A stretch of 64,000 bases of DNA from Shimia gijangensis (lineage in GTDB: Bacteria; Pseudomonadota; Alphaproteobacteria; Rhodobacterales; Rhodobacteraceae), in the NCBI RefSeq assembly GCF_900142085.1, contig NZ_FQZQ01000002.1, positions 62,001 to 126,000 on the forward strand, in the 5' to 3' direction. Below, one piece after another: positions 25,906 to 38,061 of this stretch. Within the stretch, counting starts at the first letter, position 1. Each line of letters begins with the position of its first letter. Made by a program: the position numbers and the translations under genes. The notes beneath the pieces were generated by a model. The model was not told the origin of the DNA and did not search any database. It worked only from the letters and a program-made list of their open reading frames with translations.

Positions 25906-26850
25906 TCAGCCGGGTTGCGTGGTCTGAGTTACGTCTAAAAGGACCTGAACACATCCTTGAAGGGCCGCGGCATCTTCCTCAATAAGAGAAACTGAAATTT
26001 TCGCGACATCTACAACACCCAAATCTCCGCTGGAAAACGCCCGTTCAAAGTGCACAAAACCGTCGGATTTCAAAACGCTGCGCGCTACGCTGCCAGCAAA
26101 GAACAAACCCGCTCGGGGCATGTATTGATAGACCATTTGCCGCCCGAGCTTGCCAAGTACCTGTGCAAAAACTTCAACGGACTGGGTGGCGTTCTGATCT
26201 GAATTTACCTCGAAACGTTGCATGATTTCCCGGCTGGGCAACGACTCGCCCGACATCAATTGGTAAATCCGCTCAAGTCCCGATCCACACATCCAATCCT
26301 CAACGCGAGGGGTGTTCGAGATCGAACAGCCAAGGTGATCCGCCAGCATGTTCGCAATTGGGCTGGGCAGTGCCGCATGCCCCAACTCGGCTTCAAAGGC
26401 AACTGTACTGCTCTCTGATGTGCGCTTGGAGAGGCTAACATTGAACCCGGTGCCCATGCCCACTATCAGACTTTGCACTTCGTCCGGTGTCGACTTGGGG
26501 CCGTAAAGCCGAGTTGGGTTTAACTCGGAAAGCGCATAACTAAGAGCCGCCAGATCGTTGATGAAAACGACTGAATCGGTTTTCAGGGCCTTGCCAATAC
26601 GGGCAGCATCAAACGTCCAGTCTCGGTTTGTCAGGCGTGCCGCTGCGGCCCCCACGGGTCCCGCAATTGCCAAGCAGGCCGCATCGATCCCGGTGGCGCC
26701 GGCATCGTCGCGAAACTGCTCGAGCACTTCATCAAACGTGCCAAACAGATCGTTTTGGTAGTGCCGCTGCGTTCGAGAGTTCACACCTGATGGGTCTGCC
26801 AAAGCCAGACGCGTATTGGTGCCGCCTATGTCGCCAACCAGATATTTCAT
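25906..26850 (-). CDS. Glucokinase-family sugar kinase
   Basis: About 314 residues with the ASKHA phosphate-1 motif LVGDIGGTNTRLAL, the substrate loop NRDWTFD and catalytic Asp in FINDLAAL, the ATP motif GMGTGFNVSL and the AELGH motif. It matches Glk-type glucokinases. It is the last gene of the xylFHG operon, starting at ATG 26850 four bases after the xylG stop. An in-frame longer start at 26886 lies inside xylG and is unlikely. Its place suggests that the importer also carries glucose or a related hexose. Confidence 0.85.
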   Translation of the reverse strand: MKYLVGDIGGTNTRLALADPSGVNSRTQRHYQNDLFGTFDEVLEQFRDDAGATGIDAACLAIAGPVGAAAARLTNRDWTFDAARIGKALKTDSVVFINDLAALSYALSELNPTRLYGPKSTPDEVQSLIVGMGTGFNVSLSKRTSESSTVAFEAELGHAALPSPIANMLADHLGCSISNTPRVEDWMCGSGLERIYQLMSGESLPSREIMQRFEVNSDQNATQSVEVFAQVLGKLGRQMVYQYMPRAGLFFAGSVARSVLKSDGFVHFERAFSSGDLGVVDVAKISVSLIEEDAAALQGCVQVLLDVTQTTQPG

Positions 26851-26854
26851 CAAC

Positions 26855-27607
26855 CTAGCAATCCACGCCTTCTGGTTTTTTGCCAAGGATGATCATGCCC
26901 AAAAGATCGTCGTCTGTAACATCATCGACATCAACCACGCCAACCAGTTTGCCGTTCTTCATCACACTGGCGCGGTCGCACAATTCCATCACGTCGTGAA
27001 TGTCATGGCTGATCAGAAAAATCCCGATACCATCCGCCTTGAGCTGCTGAATAAGCTCGGCCACCATTTGGGTCTCATGCGGCCCAAGGGCGGCGGTCGG
27101 TTCATCCATAATCAGGATGCGGGCATTGAAGTAAACCGCCCGGGCGATGGCCACAGACTGACGTTGCCCACCTGAAAGCGCCGAAACTGGTTCGCTGAAC
27201 TTTTGAAAGTTCGGGTTAAGCCGCGCCATGATCTTGCGGGTTTCGGCCTCCATTGCGTCGTCGTCCACCAACCCAAAAGGCGTCACCAGTTCGCGTCCAA
27301 GAAACAGGTTTGATGCGGCATCCAGATTGTCGGCCAAAGCCAACGTTTGATAGATTGTTTCGATCTGATGAGATCGCGCGTCGCGCGGATTGTGAATCTC
27401 AACCTTTTCGCCATTGATCAGGATTTCGCCGCTGTCGGCCTGATAGGCCCCGGACAAAATCTTGATCAGAGTGGATTTCCCCGCCCCGTTGTGACCCAAC
27501 AGGCCCACTACTTCTCCGGGATGAAGGTCGACGCTGACGTGGTCCACGGCATGTACCCCACCAAACGAGATACAGATGTCGCGCATTTCTACGAGAGGAG
27601 TGGTCAT
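26855..27607 (-). CDS. xylG: Sugar ABC transporter ATP-binding protein (XylG-like)
   Basis: A 250-residue single ATPase domain, half the size of the classical two-domain XylG. Walker A is GHNGAGKST, the signature is LSGGQRQS, Walker B is ILIMDEPTA and the switch His lies in LISHDIHD. It powers import of a monosaccharide with XylH and XylF. It overlaps xylH at a TGATG junction. The single-domain form is known for several alphaproteobacterial sugar importers. Confidence 0.9.
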
Positions 27608-28905
27608 CAGGCACCTCCAGTGCGTTTGCGATAGATGATGTCGATCAGGACAGCCAGAACCAGAACCGCTCCGACCACGATGTTTTGCAACGGCGCGTCA
27701 ACGCCAACCATGGCCATGCCCGATTGCAAAGATTGCATAATCAGCGCGCCAAGGATTGCACCGTGAATGGTGCCCACACCTCCGGCAAGGGCTGTTCCGC
27801 CAATCACTGCGGCGGCAATCACCCGCAATTCGTCCAGCGTGCCGATGTCGTTAGAGTGGTTGGTCAACCGGGCCGACGCGACAATTGCCGAGATCGCACA
27901 CAAGGCGCCCATCAGGGCGAAAATCTTGACTGTGAGCAATCGGGTGTTGATGCCCGACAGCTCTGCCGCATCCGGGTTGCCCCCGGTGGCAAAGATGTAT
28001 CGTCCCAACCGGGTGCGGCGCGCCAGAATGGTCATGCCGATGGCAATGGCAATCAACACCAGAACCGAGATGGGGATGCCATAAGATTGCGTGAACCCCT
28101 CAGGCATAACCTCGCCTCTGGCGTCAAACAATCGCTGTAGCTTGCGGGTTGGCACGTCATAGGCATTCAACGTTGCGACAAATCCCAGGATCGCGCTGGC
28201 CGCAATGCCGCCCAATACATATTCGGCCCACAAGGGCTTGACCGCAAAACCATGCTTTAGCTTGTTGCGACGTGCGTTGAGCAGACCAAACAGGGCGGCC
28301 GCAGTGGCCAAGGCGCCCACGATCCAGGACCCCGAAGCGCCCAAAGTGCCATTGATGCCGCCGAATTTCTGAAAGGTTGTGTCCAATGGACCGATGGTTT
28401 TACCGCTGGTCATGTACCACGCAACGTTGCGCCAGACCAATAACCCGCCAAGGGTCACGATAAAGGCTGGGATGGTCAGGTATCCCACAAGAAAACCGTG
28501 AAAGGCACCAATTGCTGTGCCCGCGATCACGCCGATAACAATGGTGATCCAAGGGGTGAGCGCGTGGTCGAACCCAAGCCCCAAAACTTGTGGAAGGAAC
28601 TGAGTTTGTGTCATCGCCATAATCGCCGAGCAAGTGGCCAGCAAAGCGCCAACGCTCAGGTCGATGTGGCGGGTGACGATCACAAACACCATGCCGGTTG
28701 CCATGATGGCTACGGAAACGGTCTGGATCGTCAGGTTAAAGATGTTGCGGGGGGTCAGAAACCGTCCGCCAGTCGCGAAATCAAACCCGATGCACAGGAT
28801 GACAAACGCGCCAACCATGCCAAGTAATCGAAGGTCGATCTCGAGCGTTTGAAAAAATCCGCGTTTCTGCGCCGTCGGCAACGCGTTGGTATCATGTTGG
28901 GGCAT
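27607..28905 (-). CDS. xylH: Sugar ABC transporter permease (XylH-like)
   Basis: A 432-residue membrane protein with about ten hydrophobic segments. The typical branched-sugar permease blocks are [29 protein letters not shown] and the C-terminal [19 protein letters not shown]. It forms the channel of the xylose-type importer. The start ATG 28905 has AAGG seven bases upstream. Confidence 0.92.
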
Positions 28906-28989: not shown

Positions 28990-30018
28990 TTAGTTACAGG
29001 GGGCAGGGCCGCCGCTGACACCCTGACACAGGGCGTCTTTTGCAATCCAGCCCGCGTCAACAACCACAGTCAGATTGTCTTTGGTGACCGGAACCGGTGC
29101 CAGAAACTTGGCTGTCATTTCCGTGCCAGCCGGAGATGTCCAGCTGCCCGCGCCGTCCACGTCAACCATGGCCGATCCACCGGCCAACGCGACAGCAATT
29201 TCGCCAGCCGCTTTGCCCAATTCACGCGCGTCTTTCCAGACAGACACGGTTTGATGACCCTTGGCCACACGGTTCAACGCCGCGTGGTCGCCATCCTGAC
29301 CTGATACCGGAATGCCTTCCATGCCTTGGGCTGTCAATGCTGCCACAACACCACCGGCTGTGCCGTCATTTGAGGCCACAACAGCGTCGACACCGTTATC
29401 GGCGGCTGTCAGGATTTGCTCCATGTTGCGTTGGGCATTGGCAGGCAGCCAGCCATCGGTATAGGCCTCGGCCACAATCTCAATGTCACCCGCGTCAACT
29501 GCGGCTTGAATGATCTCTTGCTGGCCACCGCGCAGGAAGTCTGCGTTTGGATCGGTGGGCGAGCCCTTGATCATGACATACCGGCCTTTTGGCATCTCGG
29601 CGAACACGGCACGTGCTTGCATGCGGCCCACTTCAACGTTGTCAAACGTCAGGTAAAACGCACGTGGGTCTTCGATTAGGCGGTCATAGCCTACAACGGC
29701 CACGCCTTCGTCGGCAGCGGCCTGAACCGCAGGACCAATGGCCTGCGCATCCTGTGCCAGAATGATCAGCGCATCTGCTCCCTGCGCAATCAGGCTTTCC
29801 ACATCCGAAAGCTGCTTGGCCGATGAGCTTTGTGCATCTGACGAGATGTATTTTGCACCTGCGGCGTCAAGCGCTGCTTTGATGGCGGCCTCATCGGTTT
29901 TCCAGCGTTCTTCCTGAAAATTCGACCAGCTCACGCCGACGATCAGATCATCCGCAAAAGCCGCAGCACCCATAAACGTGCTCGCGACAATTGCAGCAGC
30001 AGTTGTAAATAGTTTCAT
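28990..30018 (-). CDS. xylF: Sugar ABC transporter substrate-binding protein (XylF-like)
   Basis: A 342-residue periplasmic protein. The signal peptide MKLFTTAAAIVASTFMGAAAFA is followed by DDLIVGVSWSNFQEERWKTDE, typical of XylF. VVGYDRLIEDPRAFYLTFDN and VVASNDGTAGGV are further ligand-site blocks. It binds xylose and possibly other monosaccharides. A GGGAGAAG site precedes ATG 30018. It is the first gene of the xylFHG-glk operon and has a candidate operator upstream. Confidence 0.92.
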   Translation of the reverse strand: MKLFTTAAAIVASTFMGAAAFADDLIVGVSWSNFQEERWKTDEAAIKAALDAAGAKYISSDAQSSSAKQLSDVESLIAQGADALIILAQDAQAIGPAVQAAADEGVAVVGYDRLIEDPRAFYLTFDNVEVGRMQARAVFAEMPKGRYVMIKGSPTDPNADFLRGGQQEIIQAAVDAGDIEIVAEAYTDGWLPANAQRNMEQILTAADNGVDAVVASNDGTAGGVVAALTAQGMEGIPVSGQDGDHAALNRVAKGHQTVSVWKDARELGKAAGEIAVALAGGSAMVDVDGAGSWTSPAGTEMTAKFLAPVPVTKDNLTVVVDAGWIAKDALCQGVSGGPAPCN

Positions 30019-30090: not shown

Positions 30091-30117
30091 GATTAAATTT
30101 GCAAATCAAATTAAATC
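30091..30117. promoter_or_regulatory. Candidate xylose-regulon operator, copy 1 (xylF/ROK gene)
   Basis: GATTAAATTT, six bases, CAAATTAAATC: an inverted repeat with ten of eleven base pairs matching across a five-base centre. It lies 73 bp upstream of xylF and 106 bp upstream of the ROK regulator gene. The same 27-bp pattern occurs at 38035-38061 before xylB. Binding by the ROK regulator is inferred. Confidence 0.72.
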
Positions 30118-30222: not shown

Positions 30223-31416
30223 ATGGCTGGAGAGATTCGCAATAATGGTCGGCGCGCCCTGCTGGCGGAAATCCGACGTAATAAGCGGATTCCGCGCATT
30301 GACCTAGCTGAACGGACGGGTATCAGTCGTGCAACGGTGACGACCATTACTGCCGATCTTCTGAAAGAAGGGCTGATCGAAGAGGTGCGAGAAGACGTAA
30401 CTGGCAAAGACAACCGCCGCGGACGTCCCAAGGTTGATCTCAAAATTCGGGGAGCAGCGCGGCATGTTGTCGGCATTAAGGTCGCCAATAAAACGATTTC
30501 AACCGTGCTGCATGACTTTGAAGGCGCGCAAATTGCAGACCACGACCTGGCACTTGAGAAAAGTGTTTTTGGTGCAAATGAGCTGGCTGAAAAACTGGCT
30601 GAAGTCATTGCCGGCCTGGTCGACAAGGCCGGACTAGATGCTGAGGATATTTCGGGCGTGGGGGTTGGAATCGCGGGTACGGTCGATGCATTGCAGGGGT
30701 TTGTTTATTGGTCGCCCTCGTTAGTCGACCGAAATCTGGCGCTGGGTCAGGTGTTAAAGGATCACCTTGGAGTTCCGGTTTTTATTGACAACGATGCCAA
30801 TCTGGTGGCCGTCGCCGAGCGTTCTTTTGGGCTGGGGCAGGAACATTCGGACTTTATTGTTGTGACGATCGAAAGCGGTGTCGGCATGGGAATTGTCATT
30901 GGCAATGAACTATACCGTGGCAATCGCGGCTGCGGTGCCGAATTTGGTCATACCAAAGTGCAACTCGATGGGGCCCTGTGCCGCTGCGGCCAACGTGGTT
31001 GTCTTGAGGCTTATGTCGCCGATTATGCGCTGCTGCGCGAGGCGACCGTTGCTGGCGGCAACCCAGCTGATGACAAGGTTGAAAACTTGCTTGGTGCAGC
31101 ACGGCACGGTGATCCTCTGGCCAAATCCATTGTGGATCGGGCTGGGCGCATGTTCGCCATGGGGCTGTCTAACATCGTCAATATATTTGACCCCGAACTG
31201 ATCATCCTGTCCGGTGAGCAGATGCAATCAGATCATCTTTATGCAGAAGACGTCATCGAAGCGATGCGCAAATCAGTTGTGCAGATCGACAAGGCCGGCC
31301 CTGAAGTGGTGGTGCACCAATGGGGCGACCTGATGTGGGCGCAGGGTGCGGCGGCTTATGCGCTGGACGAGGTGTCGGAACTTGCCGTTTCAGGAATTAA
31401 GCCGAATGCAGTTTGA
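30223..31416 (+). CDS. xylR: ROK family transcriptional regulator (XylR type)
   Basis: A 397-residue protein. The N-terminal winged helix (IPRIDLAERTGISRATVTTITADLL) is fused to a ROK sugar-kinase-like domain with the ROK zinc motif CRCGQRGCLEAY and the phosphate loop GVGVGIAGTVD. ROK repressors of this layout control xylose genes in Bacillus and alphaproteobacteria. It is divergent from xylF. Its 3' end overlaps the CRTAC1 gene by 11 bp. No strong ribosome site is visible before ATG 30223. Confidence 0.87.
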   Translation: MAGEIRNNGRRALLAEIRRNKRIPRIDLAERTGISRATVTTITADLLKEGLIEEVREDVTGKDNRRGRPKVDLKIRGAARHVVGIKVANKTISTVLHDFEGAQIADHDLALEKSVFGANELAEKLAEVIAGLVDKAGLDAEDISGVGVGIAGTVDALQGFVYWSPSLVDRNLALGQVLKDHLGVPVFIDNDANLVAVAERSFGLGQEHSDFIVVTIESGVGMGIVIGNELYRGNRGCGAEFGHTKVQLDGALCRCGQRGCLEAYVADYALLREATVAGGNPADDKVENLLGAARHGDPLAKSIVDRAGRMFAMGLSNIVNIFDPELIILSGEQMQSDHLYAEDVIEAMRKSVVQIDKAGPEVVVHQWGDLMWAQGAAAYALDEVSELAVSGIKPNAV

Positions 31417-32953
31417 TTTCAGGGTCTGTGTGATGTCTGCTTTGGTCTGGGCGGGGGCGACCAGCGCTGATCCCTTGTTTCTGCCCGAATCTGTCCCCAT
31501 GCATGTTTATGACGGAGGATGGGAACATTTTGTCGGCGGAGGTGTGGCGGTATTTGACTGCGACGGCGATGCCCTCCCCGAGATGTTCGTCGCCGGAGGC
31601 AGCAATCCGGTGCAATTGCTGCGCAACTATTCTGAGGTTGGCGGGCCATTGCGCTTTGAATCTCACACGCCCAGGCACCTTGCGATGAGCGGTGCAACGG
31701 GGGCTTATCCGCTGGATATCGACAGTGATGGTCACATGGATCTTGCGGTTTTGCGGGTTGGTGACAATCAACTGTTTCGTGGTCTGGGCAATTGCGCCTT
31801 TGAACCCTATGCGCCGAATGGGTTTCTGGGCGGCGCTGGCTGGACCACGGCGTTCTCAGCGACTTGGGAAGCGGAGCAAAACTGGCCTACTTTGGCGTTT
31901 GGGAACTATGTTGATCGTGACGATCCCAAAGGCCCCTTTGGCAGTTGTGATCGCAATTATCTGTTTCGCCCTTCCGGGCTATCCTACGTTCGCGGTGAAC
32001 TGGCACCGGCTTTTTGCCCGTTGTCTATGCTGTTCAGCGATTGGAGCCGCACAGGGCGCGCTGATCTGCGCATCAGCAATGATCGTCACTACTATGTTTC
32101 CGGTGGCGAAGAGCAGCTTTGGCAAATGGCCTCGGCGCCCCGGCTGTTTAGTCCAGAGGAAGGCTGGAAACTGTATCGCCTTTGGGGCATGGGCATCGCC
32201 TCGCGGGATCTGAATTTTGATGGGCTGCCTGAAGTCTTCTTATCGTCCATGGGAGATCAGAGACTGCAGAGGATGTCCGGGCAGCGGGTGCCGATGTGGG
32301 AAGACGTGCCCTATGAAATGGGATCGACGGCGCATCGGCCTTATGTCGGGGACGACGGGCGGCCTTCGACTGGGTGGCATGTGAGCTTTGGCGACGTGCA
32401 AAATGACGGGCTGGATGACGTATTCATTGCCAAGGGCAATGTGGAACAGATGCCTGACAGCGCTATGGAAGACCCCAATAATCTATTGCTGCAAAACGCT
32501 GACGGATCATTCACCGAAGCGGGAAATCTGGCGGGTGTTGCCAGCCTGCATCGAGGTCGCGGCGCAGCCATGGTTGATTTCAATAAGGATGGGCTACTGG
32601 ACCTTGCGGTGGTCAACCGTCGTTCCGCGCTTGAGGTCTATCGCAATGTGTCAACCGACACTGGCAACTGGCTGTCGCTGCAACTTCGCCAAGATGCGCC
32701 CAACGTGAACGCCGTTGGCGCGTTCATTGAACTGCGTGTCGGTGACAAAACGATGGTGCGCGAAATCACAGTGGGCGGAGGTCACGCGGGCGGCGTAGCA
32801 GGCCCCGAACATTTTGGTCTGGCCAAAGCCAAACAGGTGCAAGTGCGGGTGATCTGGCCGGATGGACAGGCTTCGGATTGGACCGGGCTATCCATAAACC
32901 AACGGCTATTAATTGGTCGCTCTGACCTAGCCTTGCAAGTGACGGCTTACTGA
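31406..32953 (+). CDS. CRTAC1 family secreted beta-propeller protein (FG-GAP/VCBS, ASPIC/UnbV)
   Basis: About 515 residues. A signal peptide (MQFDFRVCVMSALVWAG, cleavage near TSADP) precedes repeated calcium-type FG-GAP/VCBS loops: AVFDCDGDALPEMFVAGG, PLDIDSDGHMDLAVL, FGDVQNDGLDDVFIAKG and MVDFNKDGLLDLAVV. The C-terminal ASPIC/UnbV domain follows (NAVGAFIELRVGDK, then VRVIWPDGQASDW). ATG 31406 has AGGA ten bases upstream and overlaps the end of xylR. Its function is unknown; it is probably periplasmic or secreted. It converges on a MauG-like gene with a seven-base overlap. Such an occupant of a xylose locus is unexpected. Confidence 0.87.
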   Translation: MQFDFRVCVMSALVWAGATSADPLFLPESVPMHVYDGGWEHFVGGGVAVFDCDGDALPEMFVAGGSNPVQLLRNYSEVGGPLRFESHTPRHLAMSGATGAYPLDIDSDGHMDLAVLRVGDNQLFRGLGNCAFEPYAPNGFLGGAGWTTAFSATWEAEQNWPTLAFGNYVDRDDPKGPFGSCDRNYLFRPSGLSYVRGELAPAFCPLSMLFSDWSRTGRADLRISNDRHYYVSGGEEQLWQMASAPRLFSPEEGWKLYRLWGMGIASRDLNFDGLPEVFLSSMGDQRLQRMSGQRVPMWEDVPYEMGSTAHRPYVGDDGRPSTGWHVSFGDVQNDGLDDVFIAKGNVEQMPDSAMEDPNNLLLQNADGSFTEAGNLAGVASLHRGRGAAMVDFNKDGLLDLAVVNRRSALEVYRNVSTDTGNWLSLQLRQDAPNVNAVGAFIELRVGDKTMVREITVGGGHAGGVAGPEHFGLAKAKQVQVRVIWPDGQASDWTGLSINQRLLIGRSDLALQVTAY

Positions 32954-34269
32954 TCCACAGGCAGCCCGCTTGGCACAGTGACGGGAACGCCCAGCCGTCC
33001 GACTACGGCCACTGGATCACTCAAAGCTGCCAAGAATGACAAGATATCCTGCACCTCTTGATCGCTCAGCATCACTGGGGCCAATTCATTGGCATCAGCG
33101 ATGGCTGCAACTTCTTCGGGGATGGTCATCAGCGCATCATCGGTCTCAAAGGGTTGCCCGGGTAAAATGGCTTGGCTGACATCATATGCTTTCAACGCGG
33201 CAACAGGATCAAGATGGTGGCGCACCACGGTTTCAAGACTGCGATATGCTCCGCTATGCCCATAGGGTGCGGTTTCGGTCACGTTGCGCAAAGAAGGCGT
33301 GCGAAAGCGATAGGCGTCGTCTGGATCACCCGTCACACGCATGCGCCCGATATCGCGATTGTGTCGCTCAAACCTTGCTGCCTTTCCGGGGCCAATCTGA
33401 GGCATTGCGATCGCGTGATATTGCTGATCCGTTTGGAAAATTCCAGAATGACAGGTATCGCATTCTGCCTTTCCATAAAACAATTCCATACCTGCGATGG
33501 CTTGTTCTGGCATCGTGTTTTCGCCGCGCAGATATAGGTCAAACAGGCTTTGATCGGCACGCCATTCAAAGGCAATGAAATCCGCAATGACATTTGCAAT
33601 ATCCGCGAAAACAACCGGATCAGACGAGGATTTCAGACCCTCAAATGCCAGCCCATAGTCGGGAATGGCCGTGACCCGCGCCGTCAAAATGGCCCAGGCG
33701 CCGCCTTCGCCCGTCAAAAAACCCTGACGCACCGCCTGGGCCACATCACTTTCCGAATAATGCCCGGCCATTTCGTCGCCCGATAACACAGGAAACATTG
33801 CCTGAGCGGCTAGGGCGGATTTGAAACCCTTCTCCATTTCGCCGCCCAACGGCGTACGAATGCCCGAGGGCCGGGTGTTGTCCTGCTCAAGCCGTCCATC
33901 ATGGAAAAACCGGGTAAATTCAGTTGCACCCAGATTGAACAAGGCTGGTGCATTGCGTGGGATGCGCTGTTCCGGCGGATTGTCAGGATCAAAGCGACGA
34001 TCAGGCCCAAGCCCGATGCCCCCATCCCCAATGCCAAGCGACACGCCGTCCGAGGTGCCAAACCGAGGATGATGACAGGTCGCACAGGACACATCGCGAT
34101 TGCCGCTCAGAATGGGATCGTAAAACAGCTGTTGACCCAACCGCACAGAGCGCATGTCCAAGTCAGGAAATTCAGCGTCGGGTGTTGGCAAAGGTCCGGC
34201 AATGGCAAGACTTGGAACCAGGCAGATCGCCACCATCAGGTTGCGAATTTTTCTGCTTAGTCCTGACAT
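32947..34269 (-). CDS. Di-heme cytochrome c peroxidase / MauG family protein
   Basis: A 440-residue exported protein. The signal peptide is around NLMVAICLVPSLAIAGP, and the two c-type heme sites are CATCH (residues 62-66) and CDTCH (270-274). RFDPDNPPEQRIPRNAPALFN and TPSLRNVTETAPYGHSGAY are typical of the CcpA/MauG family. Members reduce peroxide or oxidise protein residues in the periplasm. The start overlaps galM by 13 bp, making it the fourth gene of the xylB-xylA-galM operon. Whether it acts as a peroxidase or a MauG-like maturase cannot be told by eye. Confidence 0.9.
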   Translation of the reverse strand: MSGLSRKIRNLMVAICLVPSLAIAGPLPTPDAEFPDLDMRSVRLGQQLFYDPILSGNRDVSCATCHHPRFGTSDGVSLGIGDGGIGLGPDRRFDPDNPPEQRIPRNAPALFNLGATEFTRFFHDGRLEQDNTRPSGIRTPLGGEMEKGFKSALAAQAMFPVLSGDEMAGHYSESDVAQAVRQGFLTGEGGAWAILTARVTAIPDYGLAFEGLKSSSDPVVFADIANVIADFIAFEWRADQSLFDLYLRGENTMPEQAIAGMELFYGKAECDTCHSGIFQTDQQYHAIAMPQIGPGKAARFERHNRDIGRMRVTGDPDDAYRFRTPSLRNVTETAPYGHSGAYRSLETVVRHHLDPVAALKAYDVSQAILPGQPFETDDALMTIPEEVAAIADANELAPVMLSDQEVQDILSFLAALSDPVAVVGRLGVPVTVPSGLPVDQ

Positions 34270-35243
34270 ATCGTGACTTTCAACTGATGCCGGTATGGGC
34301 GCTCTGGGGTGACGATTGTTGACGCAAAGGCTGGGACGTTTACTGCATTGGGAAACCCCTGTGTCTCAAGGCAGAACCCGCAATAGGGCGCATGGAACTG
34401 CCCGGCCAAAGGTGTATGCAATGCACTCAGGTTTCGCGCGGTGTAAAGCTGAACACAGGGCTGATCGGTTTCCAATGTCAATCGCAGACCATTTGGGGCT
34501 GTGACCGTTGCGGCCGTTTGCTGGGTTTGGGATAAAACGTAATTGATATCATATCCGTCGCCCGCCGAATCCGCATCGCGAAATCGTCTGGGCGCTGTGA
34601 AATCATACTGCGAGTCGGCGACATCGCACAGAGGCCCTGTGGCAATGTTGTCTTTGTCCAAAGCGGTGATCCGGGCCGCGTTCAAATCAACCACATGATC
34701 GCGCACGTCAGCCTTTCCCATCAGGTTGTAATAGGAATGCTGGGCCAGATTGATCGGTGTCGGTTGATCTGCATCGGCTCGCATATCATAGGTCAGGCTG
34801 TTTTGCGACAATGTGATTGTGACCTGAAACGCAACGGTCCCCGGAAATCCCTGATCTCTGTTCTGCGAGGTCAGGTGCAAACGTACTGATTTGTCCCCAT
34901 CCGGCGCCATGGTCCAGAACCGCGTGCCGATGCCCTCAGCACCGCCGTGCAGGCAGTGCGCCCCTTCATTGGCGCTTAGGTCATGACGTTGGCTGTGCAA
35001 CGTATACCGGGCATTGCCAATACGGTTGGCGACACGGCCCACAATAGCCCCCATGAAATAAGGGTTTTGCAAGTAAGATTCCGGATCAGAATACCCCAAC
35101 ACCACCGGTATGCGGCGATCTTCAACCGGCACACGCCAGTCCTGTGTGATACACCCCAGATTTAAAATCGAAACCGACACATCGCCGTCCGAAAGCACGT
35201 GTTTTCGAACCTCTTCGTCTGATGGTGACCGGACCCGATTCAT
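34257..35243 (-). CDS. galM: Aldose 1-epimerase (galactose mutarotase family)
   Basis: A 328-residue mutarotase. ANRIGNARYTL, NEGAHCLHGGAEGIGTRFW (a catalytic His region), INLAQHSYYNL (second His) and the C-terminal FCLETQGFPNAVN (catalytic Glu) are visible. It interconverts sugar anomers and so speeds use of alpha/beta xylose or glucose. It overlaps xylA by one base (TAATG). Confidence 0.9.
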   Translation of the reverse strand: MNRVRSPSDEEVRKHVLSDGDVSVSILNLGCITQDWRVPVEDRRIPVVLGYSDPESYLQNPYFMGAIVGRVANRIGNARYTLHSQRHDLSANEGAHCLHGGAEGIGTRFWTMAPDGDKSVRLHLTSQNRDQGFPGTVAFQVTITLSQNSLTYDMRADADQPTPINLAQHSYYNLMGKADVRDHVVDLNAARITALDKDNIATGPLCDVADSQYDFTAPRRFRDADSAGDGYDINYVLSQTQQTAATVTAPNGLRLTLETDQPCVQLYTARNLSALHTPLAGQFHAPYCGFCLETQGFPNAVNVPAFASTIVTPERPYRHQLKVTICQD

Positions 35244-36547
35244 TACACAAATCGGTTGACGTAATTCTCCAGTATTTCCTGTCGGCCTGACTGAGGTTTT
35301 GGATCAACTTTGCCCGTGTGAACCTGCTCAAAAATCGAACCCAGATCACCTTGGAGCATGGCTTGAGCTTCGGGCGTGTCCCAGCCTGCGTAACGTGCTG
35401 CAAGCGCTTGGTCCAACCCACCATCTTCCAACATCGCTGCCGCAGCTTTGAGCCCACGCGCACAGATGTCCATGCCGCCAACATGCGCCGCCACAAGGTC
35501 TTCGGCGTCTAGTGATTGGCGTCTTAGTTTGGCGTCAAAATTGGTGCCGCCAGATGTGAACCCACCGTCCTTCAGGATGTGATAATAGGCCAGTGCAACT
35601 TCGGGTGTGTTGTTGGGGAACTGATCGGTGTCCCAACCCGACTGATAATCGTTGCGGTTCATGTCAATTGATCCAAGCACCCCAAGGGCCGTCGCCGCCG
35701 CAATCTCATGCTCGAACGAATGTCCGGCCAGAATGGCATGCCCCTGTTCAAGGTTCAGCTTGACCTCATTTTCGAGACCGTATTTCTGCAAAAACCCATA
35801 GCAAGTGGTCGCATCATAATCATATTGATGCTTAGACGGCTCCTGCGGTTTTGGCTCCACCAGAATAGCCCCTTTGAAGCCAATCTTGTGCTTGTAATCG
35901 ACCACCATGTTCAGGAAGCGACCCATATGATCCAGTTCCCGGCCCATGTCGGTATTAAGCAGGGTTTCATAGCCTTCGCGACCGCCCCACAGCACATAGT
36001 TCTCACCGTTTAACCGGTGGGTCGCATCCATGCAGGTTTTCACAGTGGCCGCAGAATAGGCAAAGACATCCGGGTCCGGATTGGTTGATGCACCAGACAT
36101 CCAGCGCCGGTGGCTGAACATATTGGCGGTCCCCCACAACAGACGGGTTTTGCGGGTCGACATTTTCTCTTCGAAATAGTCGATGATGGTTTCAAAATTG
36201 CGCAGCGAGGCGGCAAAACTGTCCCCTTCGGGCCGAATATCCGCGTCATGCCAGCAAAAATAGGGCTGTCCCAGAATGTCGAACAATTCAAAAGCGGCGT
36301 CTGCTTTGACTTTGGCGCGGCCAATCTCGTCCTGGGGGTGCCAGGGGCGCTCAAACGTTTGGCCACCAAAGGGATCCCCACCTTCCCAGGCAAAAGAATG
36401 CCAATAGGCGACCGCAAAGCGCAGATGGTCTTCCATGCGTTTGCCCATGACAACCTCGTCCGGGTTGTAGTGGCGAAACGCCAGCGGGGATGTGCTGTCC
36501 GGGCCTTCATAGGCAATTGGCGCCATACCTTGGAAAAAATCGGTCAT
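35243..36547 (-). CDS. xylA: Xylose isomerase
   Basis: A 434-residue class II xylose isomerase. [14 protein letters not shown] holds the catalytic His and Asp pair, [17 protein letters not shown] and [19 protein letters not shown] carry metal ligands, and [18 protein letters not shown] follows. It converts xylose to xylulose. Its ATG overlaps the xylB stop (ATGA). Confidence 0.95.
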
Positions 36548-37998
36548 GAGGAAAGTCCTTTTAGGCTCGGATATAGGTTTCGATACACGGCATAGGCCTC
36601 TTGGTAGCGGCCTGTCAGTTCAGTACGGGGCATAATCGTCGTGGAAATCTGTGGCTTGGTCATCACCACCTCCGGGCTTTGGCCAGTGACACCACAGATG
36701 GCCAGACGGGCGGCCCCCAAAGCGGCGCCAAACTCGCCCTTTTCGGGCAGGTGCAGTGGGGTTTCCAGTACAGTCGCGACCAGCTCCAACCAATAGCGCG
36801 ATTGCGACCCGCCACCGATGGCAAACACACTGTCCAGCGACGCCCCGGTTGATTTCAATGCCTCAAGGCTGTCGCGCAAGGCAAAGCTTACGCCCTCGAT
36901 GACAGCCCGGGTGAGGTCAGCGTGATTACTCGAGATGTCCAGACCAATCAGGGCGCCGCGAATGGCGCTGTCATTATGTGGGGTGCGCTCACCAGACAGA
37001 TAGGGCAAGAAATGCACCGTTCCGGGGGCGCCCAACGTATCGCCCAGCAATGTCGTCAACTGCTCTGGGCTTTGTTGCAGGTTTCGCGACAGCCAGTTCA
37101 GGCTGTCGGTTGCTGCCAGTATGACCCCCATCTGGTACCATTTGCCGGGGACGGCATGACAAAACGTGTGCACCGCACTGGCCGGTTGCGGGGCAAAGTT
37201 GTCGCGTGCGGCCAGCAATACGCCAGATGTTCCAAGTGAAACAAAACCGTCGCCTTCGCTGAGCGCACCAATCCCGCAAGCGGCAGCAGCATTGTCTCCG
37301 GCGCCTGCTGCAACGGCGACATCCGACGGCAACCCAAGTTCCGATGCCAGATCAGATCGGATGACCCCGACAAGGTCAGTGCCTTCAAACAATCGCGGCA
37401 TCTGGTCTTGGCGCATGTCTCCGGCCGCAAGCAACGTTTTGGACCAGTCGCGTTTGCCAACATCAAGCCATGCGGTTCCGGCACTGTCGGACATGTCAGA
37501 CGTGAACGCACCCGTGAGCCAGAAGGTCAGATAATCTTTGGGCAGCAGAACTTTTGCGACTTTTGCAAAAATTTCCGGTTCATTTTCGGCAACCCAGGCC
37601 AGTTTGGGCGCTGTAAAGCCGGGAAACACGATATTTCCACTCAGATCTCGAACACTCTCAAAGCTATCCAGCTTTGCAGCCTGAACGGCGCTGCGTGTGT
37701 CATTCCACATAATGCAGGGGCGTAAAACGCAGGCATCTCTATCCAGCAACGTCGCACCGTGCATATGTCCCGAAATGCCCAAACCGCGTAGCTGGCCCAT
37801 CTGGCTGGGCATGCGATGACGAAGATCTCTCAGCACTTTTTGAGAGGCACTCACCCAGTCTTCGGGGTCTTGTTCGCTCCAACCAGAGTGCGCATGGGTC
37901 GTGTCGTACGATGCCTCAGACACGGCTATGGTCTGCTGGTCATCATCGACCAACAGGGCGCGCAAGCCCGATGTGCCCAGATCAAGTCCTATAAACAA
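36544..37998 (-). CDS. xylB: Xylulokinase
   Basis: A 484-residue FGGY kinase. It has the phosphate motif [17 protein letters not shown], the substrate motif HMHGATLLD, the [11 protein letters not shown] and GTSGVL ATP-site blocks, and the C-terminal [13 protein letters not shown]. It phosphorylates xylulose. The start is TTG 37998 with GGGGGA six bases upstream; no ATG fits. It is the first gene of xylB-xylA-galM-mauG and has the second operator copy over its putative promoter. Confidence 0.94.
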
Positions 37999-38034: not shown

Positions 38035-38061
38035 GATTAAATTTTAGACACAAACTAAATA
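38035..38061. promoter_or_regulatory. Candidate xylose-regulon operator, copy 2 (xylB)
   Basis: GATTAAATTT, six bases, CAAACTAAATA: the same 27-bp pattern and spacing as at 30091-30117, differing mainly in the six central bases. It overlaps the -10 element and spacer of the putative xylB promoter, a typical repressor position. Confidence 0.7.

Follow-up and report, generated by a model that had tools for sequence, protein, structure and literature searches.

The DNA analysed here (the window) is a stretch of 64 kb from the alphaproteobacterium Shimia gijangensis (contig NZ_FQZQ01000002.1, positions 62,001 to 126,000 of the forward strand), and all coordinates below are those of the window. 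Near its middle, a gene for a CRTAC1-family protein and a gene for a MauG-like di-heme protein are embedded in a set of xylose (xyl) genes. The gene calls were checked by open reading frames, translations and matches to Pfam and NCBIfam, and the locus comprises the following features.

31406..32953, plus strand: CRTAC1-family protein, 515 amino acids, FG-GAP_3 repeats and UnbV_ASPIC, apparently exported
32947..34269, minus strand: MauG-like di-heme protein, 440 amino acids, CCP_MauG (PF03150), two CXXCH motifs
34257..35243, minus strand: galM, aldose 1-epimerase (PF01263)
35243..36547, minus strand: xylA, xylose isomerase (TIGR02630, above cutoff)
36544..37998, minus strand: xylB, xylulokinase (TIGR01312, above cutoff)
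30223..31416, plus strand: xylR, ROK-family regulator (PF00480 and a helix-turn-helix domain)
28990..30018, minus strand: xylF, D-xylose ABC transporter binding protein (TIGR02634, above cutoff)
27607..28905, minus strand: xylH, sugar ABC permease (PF02653)
26855..27607, minus strand: xylG, sugar ABC ATPase (Pfam/NCBIfam)
25906..26886, minus strand: glucokinase, directly after xylG (PF02685)
30093..30115, no strand: candidate XylR operator, 23-bp palindrome between xylF and xylR-CRTAC1
38037..38059, no strand: candidate XylR operator, 23-bp palindrome upstream of xylB-xylA-galM-mauG

The initial annotation of the window had described the di-heme gene as the fourth overlapping gene of xylB-xylA-galM, and CRTAC1 as overlapping the end of xylR and meeting the di-heme gene tail to tail. 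Open reading frames and domain matches agree with this. The successive overlaps are 4 bp (xylB/xylA), 1 bp (xylA/galM) and 13 bp (galM/MauG-like gene); on the plus strand the start of CRTAC1 overlaps the end of xylR (31416) by 11 bp, and the 3' ends of the convergent CRTAC1 and MauG-like genes overlap by 7 bp. Judged by eye, the N-termini of both proteins resemble signal peptides, and both are probably exported.

The arrangement is conserved far beyond this genome. Of 106 confirmed loci found in named genomes via the MauG-like protein, the best 80 were kept; 77/80 contain one or more xyl genes and 69/80 contain CRTAC1, which shows the pair to be part of the xylose locus. In 60/80 loci the MauG-like gene immediately follows galM, xylA or xylB in the same orientation. 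Its distance to CRTAC1 is below 600 bp in 55/69 loci, all 55 convergent, and 1.8-8.6 kb in the remaining 14, of which 11 represent a permuted locus with the order CRTAC1, ROK, xylFHG, xylA, xylB, (galM), MauG-like. CRTAC1 was missing from 11/80 loci; eight of them, together with L053 and L070, were taken to a whole-genome search (L033, L061 and L071 were left out), and CRTAC1 was found in 10/10 of the genomes followed (53-63% identity), adjoining a xylF-type gene in nine (47% identity in L101; none in L100). In L100, a metagenome-assembled genome of Hyphomicrobiales, the convergent MauG-like/CRTAC1 pair (L100:7391-12122) is accompanied by KduI/IolB-type and class II aldolase genes instead of xyl genes.

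The association was quantified in 196 genomes of the order, each at least 90% complete. CRTAC1 was found in 102, XylA in 114 and XylF in 104 of them, and every CRTAC1 genome had both XylF and XylA. CRTAC1 was present in 102/104 genomes with XylF and in 0/92 without it (Fisher's test, which ignores phylogeny, 1e-54). The two XylF genomes without CRTAC1 (G024 and G104) had none in the stretches read around their xylF. Among XylA-positive genomes, CRTAC1 occurred in 102/104 with XylF and in 0/10 without, which places the association with the importer; the isomerase was rejected as the main association on the same ground. In 97 of the 102 genomes CRTAC1 lies at most 8 kb from xylF. The five unlinked genes (G028, G165, G166, G181, G185) all have a VHPO-like partner (see below), and even these are confined to XylF-positive genomes in the order sample. 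In at least five genus labels (g2, g3, g7, g21, g34) both states are found, and in the listed rows CRTAC1 and XylF change state jointly. In sum, CRTAC1 goes with the XylFGH importer and is kept with it through rearrangements and across lineages. The link to the xylose locus suggested initially is present, but it tracks XylFGH, which in Ruegeria pomeroyi imports glucose and xylose, more than the isomerase. The possibility left by the initial annotation, that the pairing is unique to this genome by chance, does not apply in view of the 80 loci and 196 genomes, and a chance neighbourhood is rejected because of the locus conservation and the co-occurrence across the order.

The MauG-like protein is tied more loosely to the locus than CRTAC1. 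Its close homologues were delimited at an E value of about 1e-126, a cut chosen after the table had been seen; outside this set fall a second copy in G106 and the members of a sister clade (identity about 41-49%), so that G018, G040 and G152, which have a sister-clade match, count as lacking a close homologue. With this cut, and among the matches listed, the protein was found in 100/196 genomes: 92 also had CRTAC1, 8 had the MauG-like protein alone and 10 had CRTAC1 alone. Close MauG-like proteins were present in 92/104 XylF-positive genomes, as against 102/104 for CRTAC1. Where both occur, 83/92 genomes have the two genes side by side (gap below 500 bp, 36 bp in the median), and every one of these 83 pairs is convergent.

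In the ten order genomes that have CRTAC1 and no close MauG-like protein, CRTAC1 is adjacent to a gene for a PAP2/vanadium-haloperoxidase-like (VHPO-like) protein in six, to a gene for a DHOR-type di-heme protein in three and to neither in one (G021). The two VHPO-like proteins tested scored 40.1 and 39 bits against PAP2 (threshold 27.2), and one of them matched VCPO_2nd with 21.1 bits, below the threshold of 27; the remaining VHPO-like loci were assigned only by tblastn to L123, whose PAP2 family protein has a twin-arginine-like start by eye. All five DHOR proteins tested exceeded the PF06537 gathering threshold of 22 bits (23.7-43.1), while the DHOR genes of L122 and L182 were assigned by tblastn only. 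In G056 the genes run xylF-xylH-xylG-xylB-xylA-VHPO-like-CRTAC1.

Similar loci extend to wider samples. In a class sample of 288 genomes CRTAC1 was found in 11, seven of them outside the order. In two of the latter, G206 and G480, DHOR and xylFHG are neighbours (G206 has no XylA match but an IlvD/EDD dehydratase), in G390 CRTAC1 accompanies xylFHG with no partner seen, in G378 and G462 (by Pfam) and G425 (by eye) it lies beside a branched-chain/urea-type ABC transporter, and in G267 it is isolated. In a phylum sample of 299 genomes CRTAC1 was found in 17, four of them outside the family (G681, G691, G539 and G267, the last two from the same genus). G681, from another class, has xylB-xylA-xylF-xylH-xylG-CRTAC1-VHPO-like on one strand, the VHPO-like protein being assigned by tblastn only (41% identity). 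In G691, ROK-DHOR-CRTAC1 is divergent from xylFHG, and in G539 CRTAC1 lies beside genes for a MalK-type ATPase and an alpha-glucosidase, both named by eye. The CRTAC1 relatives beside branched-chain/urea-type or MalK-type ABC transporters (L149, L151, L152 and L183) suggest that the importer association of CRTAC1 reaches beyond xylose.

A CRTAC1 tree was built by a quick method from 114 rows, of which 110 are different (L159 and L160 repeat L101 and L147; L159 is labelled as having no partner, but its MauG-like gene simply falls beyond the cut). Over the 110 rows, a starred branch separates a MauG side of 93 rows from a DHOR/VHPO side of 17. The VHPO-paired rows form one group (100*), and in this quick tree the DHOR-paired rows need two changes. 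Taken together, the loci show that importer and CRTAC1 form a conserved unit whose peroxidase-type partner can be exchanged. The pairing of MauG with CRTAC1, on which the initial annotation had focused, is accordingly not strict, as other lineages have DHOR, PAP2/VHPO-like or no such neighbour.

In CRTAC1 itself, a match to FG-GAP (85 bits, threshold 26.9) is followed by one to UnbV_ASPIC (54.8 bits, threshold 23.4), and the profile matches PDB chain 9etn, Cartilage acidic protein 1 (E 2.5e-27). Because of the FG-GAP repeats the protein is presumed to be a propeller. On both sides of the tree 103 positions are conserved, among them Cys 52, 130, 181 and 204, Tyr101/168/229, His325/460/469 and six tryptophans (Trp146, Trp154, Trp239, Trp254, Trp260, Trp324). 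Ten positions are specific to the MauG side, and none of them is Trp, Tyr, Cys, His or Met. A target residue peculiar to the MauG side was thus sought and not found, which gives no support to a MauG-specific modification site. The four cysteines, which the initial annotation had mentioned in proposing CRTAC1 as a substrate or partner, are kept with every type of partner and look structural. Such conservation suggests that CRTAC1 would have one function irrespective of the neighbouring enzyme.

The di-heme protein belongs to the CCP_MauG superfamily (PF03150, 102.7 bits, threshold 25.6), and its CXXCH motifs are found at residues 62-66 and 270-274, their four Cys and two His being invariant in 51/51 homologues. 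Its scores remain below the curated cutoffs of the MauG family (TIGR03791, 100.2 vs 443.85), the MbnH family (TIGR04039, 110.7 vs 362.85) and the His-Xaa-Ser (HXS) MauG-like family (TIGR03981, 273.7 vs 340 bits), and membership in any of the three was rejected for this reason, though TIGR03981 is the best NCBIfam family and is matched by 51/51 aligned homologues. The closest solved chains by sequence are 6e1c, titled Di-heme enzyme, which we take to be MbnH, and bacterial cytochrome c peroxidases.

Two histidines set the protein apart. Residue 294 of MauG is the Tyr that serves as axial ligand of the six-coordinate heme, and the ends of the phmmer range pair His352 with residue 294 of chain 3l4m; position 352 is His in 50/51 homologues and Met in 1/51. 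In bacterial cytochrome c peroxidase the high-potential heme has a Met ligand, to which His352 (50/51) does not correspond. His123 (50/51) aligns with the W of FFWDGK in the HXS MauG-like protein of the same genome, and it would stand in place of the inter-heme Trp of MauG if that W, at a position that no MauG alignment covers, is the equivalent residue. According to PMC6405878, BthA appears to depend on Tyr-His ligation for reaching the bis-Fe(IV) state, which makes MauG-type long-range oxidation doubtful here. The MauG-type chemistry assumed initially is thereby weakened at both the Tyr position and the inferred inter-heme Trp.

For the sister clade (identity about 45%), 24 loci were sampled; in 18 of them a gene for a TRAP binding protein (DctP) is found at a distance of up to about 7 kb, and in 8/24 the distance is less than 600 bp. 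The sister-clade loci near such a gene are L142, L143, L145, L161-L171, L173, L174, L179 and L180, and a PfkB-aldolase-FucI-like-GalM set is also near the sister clade in L142, L165, L170 and L180. With the sister clade near TRAP genes and eight lone genes in other surroundings, the enzyme family leans to sugar-uptake loci and is not exclusive to them.

The 23-bp palindrome pattern was read from the two divergent regions of the window. In the 64 kb it is found only at 30093-30115 and 38037-38059 (at most two mismatches), and it did not occur in 100 shuffles. As the pattern derives from these very sites, the fair test lies in relatives, of which 79 xylF/xylR and 77 xylB upstream intergenic regions were scored, some possibly from the same genome, each with one mononucleotide shuffle. 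A score of at least 15/17 was reached by 39/79 and 29/77 regions, respectively, and by 0/79 and 0/77 shuffled ones. With a weight matrix, scores above the 99% background level were obtained at L118, L121, L147 and L153; no palindrome was found upstream of either gene (MauG-like or CRTAC1) in L100 and L101, nor at L149 and L150. The same palindrome before both transcripts makes it likely that, in this lineage, one regulator, putatively XylR, controls CRTAC1 together with xylR and the MauG-like gene together with xylBA-galM.

Evidence on the substrate comes from Ruegeria pomeroyi. In PMC10130141, XylFGH is the glucose/xylose transporter of this species, and in Table 1 its xylFGH mutant (SPO0863) shows changes in optical density of -92.1% on glucose and -96.6% on xylose, and in drawdown of -85.6% for glucose and -52.8% for xylose. 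A second R. pomeroyi strain (L007) has the locus of the window, with CRTAC1 and the MauG-like gene beside xylFHG, and SPO0861-0863 probably represent this locus. The glucokinase gene next to xylG, here and in 26/63 related loci, fits a glucose/xylose importer. Nothing seen points to plant polymers, with which the locus had also been connected.

In the explanation that we consider best, and to which we give a probability of roughly 45%, CRTAC1 is exported and assists the XylFGH importer, and a partner that uses peroxide either matures CRTAC1 or works with it. The MauG-like di-heme protein would be the partner in this lineage. It may use H2O2, or pass electrons, in the periplasm to mature or drive CRTAC1, possibly in direct contact with it, and CRTAC1 would then act on or capture the sugar, or a sugar derivative, before XylF. 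CRTAC1 and a heme partner at the importer point to an undescribed cell-surface step during sugar uptake. Of the periplasmic redox system that the initial annotation had associated with the xylose genes, the general form survives, and nothing was found to support the building of a cofactor in the manner of MauG. A bolder version, which we hold to be unlikely, is a new class of uptake modules, in which binding-protein-dependent sugar importers would require an exported CRTAC1, and a peroxide-using enzyme would activate it. MauG-like, DHOR and VHPO-like proteins would have been swapped into the activating role, and CRTAC1 would use a protein-derived or oxidatively activated site to convert an unusable sugar derivative into the imported sugar.

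Several observations weigh against the proposed accessory role. Eight genomes have a close MauG-like protein and lack XylA, XylF and this CRTAC1 (L127-L134); these lone genes occupy another conserved position, adjoining housekeeping genes (trmFO-, gluQ- and hisI-like, named by eye) with no genes of the xyl locus nearby. No partner was recognised in the stretch examined for 18/110 tree rows, including Ruegeria TM1040, and none is adjacent in G021, in TM1040, in Yoonia/Loktanella-type loci or in several loci outside the order, although the Yoonia/Loktanella genomes do carry a MauG-like gene elsewhere. By weight matrix, the palindrome was not found upstream of the five unlinked VHPO-CRTAC1 pairs or the eight lone MauG-like genes, of MauG-like genes away from CRTAC1 (L136, L137, L140, L146) or of the ROK gene in the xyl-linked DHOR loci L117, L120 and L122. 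Missing at the unlinked copies and at three DHOR-linked ROK genes, the site is not universal. Finally, in PMC10130141 the pooled mutant screen confirmed xylFGH on glucose and not on xylose.

Some of the same facts would suit a rival explanation, in which CRTAC1 alone serves the importer by capturing or processing sugar, and the peroxidase-type neighbours are independent peroxide defence or electron sinks expressed during sugar uptake. CRTAC1 indeed tracks XylF more tightly (102/104) than the close MauG-like protein does (92/104), some CRTAC1-xylF loci have no such neighbour (L118, L150, L155), and the close MauG-like clade occurs without CRTAC1 in eight genomes. However, three peroxidase-type families are found directly beside CRTAC1 in different CRTAC1 lineages, and 83/83 adjacent MauG-like genes are convergent with it, so that we regard independence as rather doubtful.

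CRTAC1 could instead be a periplasmic sugar oxidase that produces H2O2, and its partner (a di-heme peroxidase, DHOR or VHPO-like protein) would remove it. Each of the three partner families takes its name from peroxidases or is related to them, and other proteins with a propeller fold are sugar dehydrogenases. However, neither Pfam nor NCBIfam shows an oxidase or cofactor domain in CRTAC1, sugar oxidation would compete with uptake, and the haloperoxidase activity of the PAP2 protein is deduced from its PAP2 match and a single weak VCPO match. This explanation appears distinctly unlikely.

The chemistry first envisaged, in which a true MauG-type enzyme builds a Trp- or Cys-derived cofactor in CRTAC1 as MauG does in methylamine dehydrogenase, is improbable. 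The superfamily match and the six conserved tryptophans would speak for it, as would the best NCBIfam relative, which is part of a radical-SAM system for peptide modification, but His stands where MauG has its Tyr ligand and presumably also where it has the inter-heme Trp, and the conserved Trp, Tyr and Cys are identical where the partner is DHOR or VHPO-like. Hitch-hiking, a shared neighbourhood without shared function, has very little probability: the 196 genomes are related and the co-occurrence test ignores phylogeny, but the locus has been rearranged in several ways with CRTAC1 staying with xylF, presence and absence switch jointly within at least five genus labels, CRTAC1 recurs with XylFGH in other orders and another class, and even unlinked CRTAC1 is confined to XylF-positive genomes of the order sample.

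To our knowledge there is no agreed molecular function for CRTAC1/ASPIC proteins, from bacteria to humans, and we know of no CRTAC1 or peroxidase gene in the classical xyl operons of other bacteria. The importer is of the CUT2 type, and complete xylF, xylH and xylG lie beside a ROK regulator here. Methylamine dehydrogenase is a propeller in its solved structure, and the MauG-methylamine dehydrogenase system resembles the present one in that the gene for a di-heme CCP_MauG protein accompanies one for an exported, presumably propeller-shaped protein; the present locus differs in the His at Tyr294 and at the inferred inter-heme Trp, in the partner CRTAC1 and in the sugar importer. In the MbnH-MbnP system a di-heme enzyme oxidises a Trp of its partner. 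The likeness is an enzyme plus an exported partner, with 6e1c the closest solved chain, whereas the TIGR04039 cutoff is not reached here and the partner is CRTAC1. The HXS MauG-like family is the best NCBIfam family of the di-heme protein, but the score is below its cutoff, and the hxs genes found sit on contig C58 with another family member.

A further parallel is hydrazine synthase (HZS) of anammox bacteria, which has a bis-His heme gammaII and gammaHis144 (PMC12758564), reminiscent of His352 and His123. In HZS homologue clades I-II a di-heme gamma-type gene lies near a CRTAC1 family gene, and an FG-GAP gene is also found in clade III (PMC12758564), so that a di-heme protein has a CRTAC1 gene for company in this setting too. 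Unlike His123, the 144 position is Trp in the CRTAC1-linked homologues of clades I-III given there; moreover, the match of the present protein is weak (20.7 vs 625 bits), no alpha subunit was recognised and the setting is different. Apart from this neighbourhood remark in PMC12758564, searches of openly licensed PMC papers listed no recognisable treatment of bacterial CRTAC1 with MauG or xyl genes.

The locus ties CRTAC1 to a transporter of known substrate and to a partner whose chemistry can be recognised, and Ruegeria pomeroyi DSS-3 has an arrayed transposon library (3048 of 4284 genes, PMC10130141), which makes the function of CRTAC1 directly testable. Such work would also reveal how abundant marine bacteria use glucose and xylose in dilute seawater.

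The S. gijangensis genome has a His-Xaa-Ser system of its own (HxsB, HxsC, HxsA and TIGR03982; contig C58, L158:5962-10608), whose MauG-like protein is above the TIGR03981 cutoff (386.6 bits). A plasmid of Phaeobacter inhibens P88 (L154) carries xylGHF, ROK-CRTAC1 and MauG-like-galM together, and 58 of the 64 plasmid records with a CRTAC1 match are from Phaeobacter.

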